Assembly: GCA_028688515.1 (NCBI GenBank)
Contig: JAQTXZ010000001.1
Coordinates: 496,001 to 560,000, forward strand
DNA length: 64,000 bases
Source: Patescibacteria group bacterium
GTDB lineage: Bacteria > Patescibacteriota > Patescibacteriia > 2-12-FULL-60-25
Direction of reading: 5' to 3'
A program made the translations under genes and the position numbers. Shown piece after piece: positions 13,362 to 49,535 of the stretch; position 1 is the first letter of the stretch; the number at the start of each line of letters is the position of its first letter. Below the pieces are notes generated by a model. It was not told where the DNA came from. It saw only the letters and a list, made by a program, of their open reading frames with translations, and made no database searches.

Positions 13362-13556
13362 CTCTGTCATTGCGAGCGAAGTCCGACGTAGCGCGGTAAT
13401 CTCCTCTGTCCGACTAACACATCCTCCTCATGTCATTTCGACTGAAGCGTAGCGAAATAGAGAAATCCCTTAACTAATAACGAAAGCAACTCTTGTTTAA
13501 AGCACGATCCAGATCTCTCGACTCCGTCCAACTTCGCTCGAGATGACAGAATAAAC
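13362..13556. repeat. Pair of TGTCAT...ATGACA palindromic repeats
   Basis: The first part (about 13365-13410) reads TGTCATTGCGAGCGAAGTCC...CGGTAATCTCC. The second (about 13430-13550) begins TGTCATTTCGACTGAAGCGT and ends CTTCGCTCGAGATGACAG. Both families recur at 38199-38395, 46565-46640 and 49360-49530. The pair lies directly before the shortened ROK-like gene. Confidence 0.75.
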
Positions 13557-28648: not shown

Positions 28649-28978
28649 ATGAATATATTGAATGACTAATGCAGGGGAGTGTCAAGAAAAAAATTTACAA
28701 TTAACAATGTAGAATTAACAATTTAAGAAAAATATTTTGTATAAAAAATATAATAGCATCACGAAATGAAATGAATCCTTCATTGTTATTTGTTAATTGT
28801 AAATTGTTAATTGCCAAAGGGGAGTGATGTGGAAAAGGTAGTGAAAATGGGCTTTTTTGACAATAATTAGCGTCGCACAATATATGTTATACGGCGCATA
28901 GTGGGTTTTCTTAACCATCAAACCCATAAGCAATGCTACCTAACTAAACCATTTAAACTCACCAACTCTTGTTATTTG
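28649..28978. other. 330-bp gap: AT-rich inverted repeat and an orphan promoter-like site
   Basis: 28691-28815 is an inverted repeat of ATTAACAAT/ATTGTTAAT words. On the plus strand, 28817-28853 has G-rich clusters about every 10 bp, followed by TTGACA at 28857 and TATATG or TGTTATACG near 28881-28893. No plus-strand gene lies downstream. A GGGTTT...AAACCC hairpin follows at about 28902-28924. Confidence 0.5.
28691..28815. repeat. AT-rich inverted repeat of TTAACAAT words
   Basis: TTTACAATTAACAATG...GAATTAACAATTT on the left is mirrored by TTGTTAATTGTAAATTGTTA on the right. The same words are found at 11252, 38165 and 51365. Confidence 0.65.
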
Positions 28979-38164: not shown

Positions 38165-38395
38165 CTTAATTAACAATTAACAAATTACAATTTTATCCTT
38201 TTGTCATTTCGACCGGAGCGTTAAAGCGAAGTGGAGAAATCTCATCGCCTCTAACTCGGTTGCTTTGTTCTAAGCACGTACCAGATCTTTCGACTCCGTC
38301 GGACTCCGCTCAAGATGACAAAAAGAAAAGCGGTTGCGGTCGAGATGACGGGAAGATTGCCGCGTCGTGACTGCACTTCTCGCAATGACAGAGAG
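38165..38395. repeat. Cluster of palindromic repeats
   Basis: In order: a TTAACAATTAACAAATTACAA word, then TGTCATTTCGACCGGAGCGT (38203) to AAGATGACA (about 38320), then GAAGATTGCCGCG...CTTCTCGCAATGACAGAG (about 38350-38393). All three families occur elsewhere in the window. They fill the gap between the UvrD and DciA-like genes. Confidence 0.75.
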
Positions 38396-45402: not shown

Positions 45403-46560
45403 ATGAAGGATTTTGACATCAGAATCAGATATACGTTCATCATGCTCTTGACTGTTGTCGGATGTTTTTTGACGTCCGGCGCTCATGCTGCTGACATCGG
45501 ACAGTTCGTGTCAGTGTCCGGGACGCGGCTTACGCTTAACAATCAGACCTGGATGCCTGTCGGGATGAATTTGATGGATCACGAGACGATTTGGGATACA
45601 AACAAAACCGAACCGACTTTGACTTGGCTGCGCGATAAAGATTTTGCGGATTTGGAAAAATCAGGTTTTAATTCCGTGCGTCTAGTCGTTAAATCCGATT
45701 ATTTCCAAGACGTTGATCCGCCGCATAAATTTTCTGAAGCCGGTTTTAAATGGCTCGATGCTGTGATTGCGCTCGCAAAAAAACACAACATCAAATTGAT
45801 TCTCGATATGCACATGCCAACCGGAGGCGTGCAGCAGGATTATCAAATCAATGACGACAATCAAGCTTTTTGGAATGACGACTGGGCAAAAGGACGTTTT
45901 GTAGACGTCTGGCGTGAGATAGCACGTCGTTATGCAAAAGACCCGACAGTCTGGGCTTATGACACAATGAACGAGCCGGCGACGACTGATTTTAAGGCGT
46001 ATCAAAATTTGATGCGCAGTGCCATCAACTCGATCAGGCTTTACGACGACAGCCACGTTATCATGCTGCAAAAAGGCATGAAGATTAATAACGACGGCAG
46101 CTGGTCGGTGGAATACCCGCAAACCGACGACGCGAATATCGTCCGCTCAATCCACTTTTATCAGCCGACCGATTTTACTTTGCAAGGTGCGGCTTGGTTA
46201 AACTCCCCCACCTCGTCATCGCGAGAAGGGAATCCGACGATGGACGCGGCAATCTCCTATAACCACTCGTCGACCACTGAACTGAACTTATTGACGCAGG
46301 ACTTGCAGACAATCGTCGACAAAGCGCAAAGCTCCACGCATGCCGTCGTACTTACGGAGTTTGGACTCCTGTGGCCCAAGAAACTGACCGGCCAGCCGGA
46401 TTGGATTGTCGACGTTGCAAAACTGGCTTCAAATTTTGGAATAGGCTGGCATTATTGGCATTATACCGGCACGACCTGTTCGCAGTCATTCAACTTAAAG
46501 ACCCTTTACGGCACTTGCCATCCTTTGACTTTCGGGATGTTGTCGGGGGCTGCAAAGTAG
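45403..46560 (+). CDS. Secreted GH5-like cellulase-family glycoside hydrolase with repeat insert
   Basis: 385 residues. A signal peptide (about 10-30, ending GAHAA) precedes a TIM barrel of GH5 type: PVGMNLMDHETIW, FNSVRLVVKSDYF, KLILDMHMPTGG, VWAYDTMNEPATTDF (acid/base Glu), VRSIHFYQPTDF and VVLTEFGLLWPK (nucleophile Glu), then WHYWHYTG. Both catalytic glutamates are present. Residues 268-285 (PTSSSREGNPTMDAAISY) are encoded by an intergenic repeat sequence, between the barrel's HFYQP strand and the next helix. The substrate is unknown. The ATG lies in an AATTAAGAATTAAGAATG repeat word, so a downstream start at MLLTVVG is possible. Confidence 0.9.
   Translation: MKDFDIRIRYTFIMLLTVVGCFLTSGAHAADIGQFVSVSGTRLTLNNQTWMPVGMNLMDHETIWDTNKTEPTLTWLRDKDFADLEKSGFNSVRLVVKSDYFQDVDPPHKFSEAGFKWLDAVIALAKKHNIKLILDMHMPTGGVQQDYQINDDNQAFWNDDWAKGRFVDVWREIARRYAKDPTVWAYDTMNEPATTDFKAYQNLMRSAINSIRLYDDSHVIMLQKGMKINNDGSWSVEYPQTDDANIVRSIHFYQPTDFTLQGAAWLNSPTSSSREGNPTMDAAISYNHSSTTELNLLTQDLQTIVDKAQSSTHAVVLTEFGLLWPKKLTGQPDWIVDVAKLASNFGIGWHYWHYTGTTCSQSFNLKTLYGTCHPLTFGMLSGAAK
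46206..46257. repeat. In-frame copy of the CGTCATCGCGAG...GGCAATCTCC repeat inside GH5
   Basis: CTCGTCATCGCGAGAAGGGA, then ATCCGACGATGGACGCGGCA and ATCTCC. It aligns with the intergenic copy at 46570-46635 downstream of the same gene and with 13365-13410. Confidence 0.85.
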
Positions 46561-46564
46561 ATCC

Positions 46565-46793
46565 CCCTTCTCTGTCATCGCGAGCGTAGTCCGACCCGCC
46601 AACATCTGCGAAGTTGTGGCGGGCGGCAATCTCCTGTCCGACTAACGCTCCTCTGTCATTCCCGCGGTTAGTTGAGGCGGGAATCCAATAAGATTAAATT
46701 GAAACACATTAATTCCATTGGATCCCCGGGTCTCCGTCGGACTTCGCCTAGGATGACAGAAGGGATGACAGATTACGCTCGCAATGACAAAAA
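46565..46793. repeat. Cluster of four palindromic repeats between GH5 and queH
   Basis: Units begin TGTCATCGCGAGCGTAGTCC (46572) and TGTCATTCCCGCGGTTAGTT (about 46656), continue with ATTGGATCCCCGGGTC (about 46716) to AGGATGACAGAAG, and end CGCTCGCAATGACA (about 46788). The two outer units are an inverted pair. Confidence 0.8.
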
Positions 46794-49319: not shown

Positions 49320-49535
49320 ATCCCTCTAAATCTCCCTTTGACGAGGGAGACTTCGAAACAGCTCTGTCATTGCGCCGTTAGACGGGAGCCGCGACAATCT
49401 CCTCTCTCTTTGTCATCCTCGGGCGGAGTTGGACGGAGTCGAGAGATCTGGTTTGTGCTAACAACTGAAGCAACTATGTTAGAAGCGATAGGATTTCTCC
49501 ACTTCGCTTTTACGCTCCGGTCGAAATGACAGAAA
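49320..49535. repeat. Palindromic repeats between the DEAD helicase and the 48381 gene
   Basis: A CTCCCTTTGACGAGGGAG hairpin is followed by TGTCATTGCGCCGTTAGACG...GACAATCTCC (about 49367-49402), then TGTCATCCTCGGGCGG, GTCGAGAGATCTGG and GCTCCGGTCGAAATGACAG (ending about 49531). They belong to the same three families as elsewhere. No gene is seen in this gap. Confidence 0.75.

Follow-up and report, generated by a model that had tools for sequence, protein, structure and literature searches.

A CGTC-tagged palindromic repeat lies in frame in a GH5 gene of a Patescibacteria group bacterium, with a GIY-YIG nuclease as candidate partner of such repeats

In the 64,000-nucleotide stretch of DNA analyzed here (the window), a gene for a GH5 glycoside hydrolase carries in its reading frame a copy of a palindromic repeat (REP) that is dispersed through the genome. 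It is very probable that a multi-copy REP with the TGTC/CGTC tag entered the post-beta6 loop of this enzyme in frame and replaced part of that loop. The copy occupies positions 46214-46257 of the forward strand (44 nt, CGTCATCGCGAGAAGGGAATCCGACGATGGACGCGGCAATCTCC) and encodes residues 271-285 of the protein (SSSREGNPTMDAAIS). A previous sequence-only reading had set its limits at 46206-46257 and residues 268-285; the repeat itself stands, and its start lies eight bases further in. To avoid circularity, the GH5 copy was excluded from the covariance model used to score it, which took 18 other copies as input, and it was nevertheless recovered with 34.6 bits (E=1.4e-8 in the 64-kb window), so that its DNA likeness to the intergenic copies survives proper modelling. 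The copy has diverged from the consensus and contains a C.A mismatch in its stem, as might be expected if a native loop resembled the repeat by chance, but the model that gave this E value had never seen the copy and the homologues differ in exactly the repeat-encoded residues, which leaves chance resemblance a next to negligible probability. The nearest fetched matches to the element are two sequences identical at 37 of the 44 positions, one in genome G004 and the other in G025 (L157), and no known structured RNA in Rfam matched at the GH5 repeat site.

The intergenic copies that the sequence-only reading had marked at 13365, 46570 and 49367 are real, with the limits given in Table 1, and the 39-nt copy on the reverse strand is a further one absent from that reading. 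A copy does follow the GH5 gene, as had been described, although its distance of about 310 bp has to be corrected to 13 bp from the stop codon, or approximately 316 bp from the insert. Genome-wide, the pattern GTCATNGCGAGN{5,35}GCAATCTC has 18 matches compared with none in a reversed-sequence control, and a covariance model that included the GH5 copy finds about 68 related places at a cut-off of E<=0.1, related subtypes with other stems among them. Most copies are intergenic, and about 10 of the 68 places sit well within conserved genes. The architecture consists of a 5-bp outer stem with approximately 22-26 nt between the arms. The outer AT...AT pairs are present in every copy used, the GH5 copy pairs alignment positions 5-40 and 6-39 as expected, and its tag is CGTC while that of most copies is TGTC. 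The REP consensus is open in five of six frames, to which we give no weight because a random 40-mer is roughly estimated to be open in about four.

Other repeat structures were also observed in the window. The REP at 46573-46634 has a second hairpin, CCGCCAACATCTGCGAAGTTGTGGCGGG, set into its center as a nested element. A chimeric REP at 49408-49444, with a CCTCGG-type head and a CTCGAG-type tail, suggests recombination between subtypes. Short intergenic repeats of the AATTAACAATTAACAAATTACAATT type occur at 28692, 38168 and 51379, and a sequence of this kind may be the source of the 'LRIKNYELRIK' stretches in the protein encoded at C4:410233 and in LeuRS.

Table 1. Location of the GH5 gene, the REP copies, the other genes with in-frame copies and the clade-B GIY-YIG genes. 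Plain coordinates refer to the window; C2 and C4 without a genome label belong to this genome (G000).
Feature	Location	Strand	Basis
GH5 glycoside hydrolase, 385 aa, intact, carrier of the insert	45403..46560	+	PF00150, E=4.2e-33
REP copy in GH5 frame, 44-nt subtype, CGTC tag	46214..46257	+	leave-one-out covariance model
Intergenic REP, near consensus	13365..13404	+	60.5 bits
Intergenic REP, CTCGAG subtype (in-frame subtype of LeuRS and UvrB)	13511..13548	-	23.2 bits
Intergenic REP, CTTGAG subtype (in-frame subtype of ArgRS)	38283..38320	-	18.9 bits
Intergenic REP, 39-nt subtype	38352..38390	-	40.8 bits
Intergenic REP, 13 bp past GH5 stop, about 30 nt extra in center	46573..46634	+	model and sequence
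Intergenic REP, dRS3/CGTC-1-like, TGTCATTCCCGC...GCGGGAATCC	46654..46686	+	sequence reading
Weak intergenic REP-like match, another subtype, TGTCATCCTAGGCGAAGTCC...	46720..46758	-	12 bits
Shortened intergenic REP, outer ends only	46768..46789	-	covariance model matches
Intergenic REP, diverged	49365..49402	+	24.5 bits
LeuRS with in-frame REP pair	C2:60248-62698		congeners show insertion
UvrB with in-frame REP	C4:478342-480495		congeners show insertion
ArgRS with in-frame REP	C4:19535-21475		congeners show insertion
MnmA with in-frame REP	C4:374430-375623		congeners show insertion
MurL-MurD fusion (L093) with in-frame REP	C4:410233-412299		one congener (G006) as comparison
ComEC with probable in-frame REP	C2:88466-90076		ORF and family naming
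Wzy/O-antigen ligase with three probable in-frame REP copies	C2:141676-143280		ORF and family naming
Clade-B GIY-YIG gene of this genome, inverted REPs at flanks (L203/L238)	G000:C2:97378-97671		
Clade-B GIY-YIG nuclease with REPs (L156)	G004:C11:17200-18300		
Further clade-B GIY-YIG genes bracketed by inverted TGTC/CGTC REPs, several phyla	L207/L208, L221-L233		

The enzyme that carries the insert has the PF00150 domain and the two catalytic glutamates expected after beta4 and beta7 (E191 and E319, invariant in 10 aligned sequences), which upholds the original assignment to GH5 with intact glutamates and barrel motifs. Nine GH5 homologues from the genus and the family (59% to 30% identical) do not have the repeat-encoded residues, so the insertion withstands the comparison with homologues that the sequence-only reading had proposed, and a search of their loci with the leave-one-out model found no REP. 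Although the repeat encodes 15 residues, the net gain relative to the homologues is approximately 4-6 (about five between the invariant W265 and the next helix), and the YP...W found in nearly all of them is missing from this GH5. This indicates that native loop residues (YP...W) have been lost; judging from the alignment, the event is not a clean insertion, and the native loop appears to have been partly replaced, with the loss occurring at insertion or afterwards. No relative with more than 60% identity, and hence no empty site, was found in the genus, the family or the genome contigs, so the insertion event is not readable base by base.

In the AlphaFold model of the enzyme (mean pLDDT 77.7), residues 256-282 fall below 50 and form a loop between the strand 246-254 and the helix 291-308. 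This low confidence supports the view that the repeat sits in a predicted loop tolerant of it. The earlier notion of a tolerated surface loop is therefore sustained as regards the loop and its tolerance, but not as regards a harmless surface site: the predicted post-beta6 loop lies on the catalytic face, beside H251 and Y253 of the beta6 strand, and its YP...W has been replaced. Both facts fit a gene in decay, which would be turning into a pseudogene after the repeat had ruined a conserved loop; we regard this as unlikely, since the frame is open from end to end, the catalytic glutamates and barrel motifs are kept, the codons are used as in coding DNA (0.17 per codon) and the genes that carry such repeats elsewhere in the genome are essential ones. 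Among solved structures, CelC (1cec) is the nearest by sequence, and T. maritima Cel5A and CelC lead by fold. These GH5 cellulases have their fold and catalytic residues in common with the present enzyme, whereas the repeat-derived residues in the beta6-alpha6 loop are a feature of this GH5. CelC also has extra residues in the same region of the catalytic face, so that a benefit of the repeat-encoded residues, for example as a new substrate-binding loop, might be imagined as the reason for their retention. This is very improbable, as little order is predicted for the insert, nothing points to a benefit, and REPs of many kinds and frames occur in unrelated proteins.

In-frame elements in Rickettsia are a textbook case of selfish DNA that creates new protein segments. 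In the present genome, we surveyed the open reading frames over all 68 places and named their carriers by NCBIfam/Pfam. As a result, in-frame REPs were identified in conserved genes, essential ones among them, in several frames and on both strands (Table 1); ComEC and the Wzy/O-antigen ligase probably carry them as well. The GH5 copy is not unique in the genome. The count leaves out N-terminal overlaps (PolX, delta prime, DHH, GrpE) because the true start may be downstream. UvrB of this genome contains PDLSTPSNFARDDG at a place that is a short linker in seven congeners; in the eighth congener, G001 (L099), a different palindromic repeat of the CCCCCT...AAAGGGGG type stands in frame in the linker. 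The editing-domain loop of LeuRS holds pairs of REPs of differing types in G000, G004 (L098) and G002 (L130), which looks as though the type had been exchanged or reinserted among the three; in six congeners the loop is free of REPs. One of the carriers (L093) is itself unusual in that a MurL-like epimerase and MurD are fused in one ORF. Landing in frame has recurred in the genome and the genus, in LeuRS, ArgRS, UvrB, MnmA, MurL-MurD and others, and the copies would have spread as selfish, non-autonomous DNA. The copy in GH5 may persist because the element is short and free of stops in most frames and because the site tolerates a change of length.

It has been reported that CGTC-tagged REPs, with the tag variants TGTC and CCTC, have AT pairs at the first stem positions, an unpaired 3' tail, dimers and dispersed intergenic copies, that they include Rickettsia RPE-4 and RPE-6 and Neisseria dRS3, and that copies within genes occur in frame, for instance in uvrB of R. 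conorii, a repair gene, and in genes for tRNA synthetases (Di Nocera et al. 2013, PMC3733652). The present element agrees with them in its tag, the A-T pairs at stem positions 1 and 2, the unpaired 3' tail, the dimers and the dispersed intergenic and in-frame copies. In contrast, the four published families have a stem of 8-9 bp and a loop of 4-5 nt (PMC3733652), whereas in the GH5-type element an outer stem of 5 bp encloses a middle of 20-plus nt; its tail is CTCC instead of CCA, and its host is outside the groups highlighted in that study. We therefore place it in the CGTC REP superfamily by tag and behavior, outside the four published families. The sequence-only reading had likened the insert to Rickettsia palindromic elements, which are likewise palindromic repeats in frame in conserved protein genes, as seen here in GH5, LeuRS, UvrB, ArgRS, MnmA and MurL-MurD. 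The link is wider than this analogy, given that RPE-4 and RPE-6 are themselves CGTC-tagged REPs (PMC3733652); RPE-1, a longer palindromic insertion (PMC3733652), is likened here by description. As that reading had also supposed, we found no description of in-frame palindromic repeats in Patescibacteria in the open-licence literature searched.

To our knowledge, no account of how CGTC-type REPs move has been established since the type was defined. One of the two 37/44 matches to the GH5 element lies just upstream of an ORF for a GIY-YIG protein of approximately 95 aa in G004, and the stop codon of this ORF runs into another REP. The GIY-YIG genes of the family fall into clade A (YhbQ-like), a mixed group and clade B (support 98/90), and REPs bracket clade B, not clade A. 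With bracketing defined as a REP within 200 bp on both sides by an objective hairpin test, 36 of 63 clade-B genes (some of which are not independent, such as the G006 duplicates, and one of which, L218, was typed B by score and lies outside the clade in the tree) are bracketed, as against 0 of 31 other GIY-YIG genes (Fisher p=8e-9), 0 of 28 background sites 600 bp away and 2 of 1260 shuffled flanks. In the class-wide sample alone, which was chosen by protein score, the proportion is 15/29 (p=1.5e-6). Inverted matches between the two flanks agree with the hairpin test, and the partners are often matched. REPs of the present model occur in 20 of 41 family genomes and 42 of 144 sampled class genomes; G003, G007 and G008 had no matches to it, so that a GIY-YIG link there, if any, would involve other REP types or none.

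The association extends over Patescibacteria-like genomes, Cyanobacteria, Proteobacteria and Bacteroidota. Among PLSDB records, clade-B genes are bracketed in Planktothrix, Azospirillum, Neorhizobium, Rhizobium, Shinella, Sphingobium, Novosphingobium, Spirosoma, Aeromonas and N. gonorrhoeae, with a separate REP type in every case, dRS3-type repeats in that of N. gonorrhoeae; bracketing is not clear in the records of Photobacterium and R. tumorigenes. CGTC REPs have been reported to lack a dedicated transposase, in a study in which GIY-YIG is not mentioned (PMC3733652); our observations depart from this absence of an associated gene, dRS3-type repeats included. No paper that joins GIY-YIG to REPs was found in the open-licence literature searched, and the association of clade B with REPs is new. 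It makes the GIY-YIG nuclease a candidate partner of CGTC REPs, possibly with a mobilizing role.

A comparable arrangement is known from the REPtrons of GTAG REPs and RAYTs, where small palindromic repeats also bracket a nuclease or transposase gene; there the gene encodes an HUH Y1 transposase and here a GIY-YIG protein. The present system is not one of these REPtrons, as its tag is TGTC/CGTC and the Y1_Tnp fragment of the genome is unflanked. A RAYT/Y1 transposase was rejected as the mover: the sole match in the genome is this fragment, which lies in a REP-free stretch of high GC content, and within the family the presence of Y1_Tnp bears no relation to the number of REPs (G014 and G004, with 71 and 30 REPs, both lack it). 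The high-GC stretch (G000 C4:28444-31695, L032) looks foreign and holds a DNA methyltransferase-like gene in addition to the truncated Y1 transposase.

We give roughly an even chance to the proposal that the copies derive from a cassette, a gene for a GIY-YIG protein of about 95 aa between two REPs. The nuclease would cut target DNA, repair of the cut would bring in a copy of a REP or of the entire cassette, and the in-frame survivors would be those copies whose host loops tolerate them. No target-site duplication could be defined. Genome G006 has one cassette in duplicate (96% over 522 bp); the flanks of the two copies are unrelated, and the right end of each coincides with the outer REP tag. 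In Azospirillum lipoferum 4B, a clade-B gene and REP pairs separate sufB from sufC; the spacer at this place contains neither the gene nor REPs in A. ramasamyi, A. oryzae and strain B510, and it is too diverged to give base-exact cassette borders, and the repeat-rich alignments of S. meliloti pSymB and Planktothrix gave no clean border either. The in-frame insert of MurL corresponds to one of the REPs beside the genome's own GIY-YIG gene (C2:97378), and the 49 bp of this match take in nine bases outside the REP.

It is important to consider that GIY-YIG domains also occur in homing endonucleases. Rather than the mobilizer, the nuclease could itself be parasitic, a free-standing homing endonuclease with a preference for landing in REPs, which would spread by other means. 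A weak match to TIGR01453 (group I intron endonuclease) agrees with this, as do REP types that sometimes differ between the two sides of one gene (L184, for example), and the association by itself gives no direction. Nevertheless, REPs stand on either side of about half of the clade-B genes and are often inverted and matched to each other, the duplicate cassettes of G006 end on the right side at the outer REP edge, and the related Azospirillum lack both the nuclease and any flanking REPs at that site; we thus hold a homing endonuclease to be a serious explanation with a probability well short of even. The broader form of the cassette proposal, in which the small GIY-YIG clade is the dedicated mobility enzyme of TGTC/CGTC REPs across bacteria, including dRS3 and by extension RPE-4 and RPE-6, and the GH5 repeat is the non-autonomous product of a new nuclease-REP element, has in our judgment slightly less than an even chance of being correct.

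The host genome has 1.29 Mb and is 99% complete, and uL30 (PF00327) gave no match in it compared with a match in 13 of 14 control genomes; its small size and the missing uL30 are consistent with Patescibacteria. These results extend the phenomenon of in-frame REPs to a lineage of ultra-small genomes, in which essential genes carry such repeats and REP-free sister genes serve as controls. They also name a testable enzyme, clade B of GIY-YIG, for the movement of CGTC REPs, and its bracketing by such repeats would revise the published statement that they have no associated transposase (PMC3733652). Should the nuclease be no more than a parasite of REPs, its link to them would still be a new finding and a useful marker; if it moves them, one small nuclease family would explain repeats from Cyanobacteria to Neisseria.
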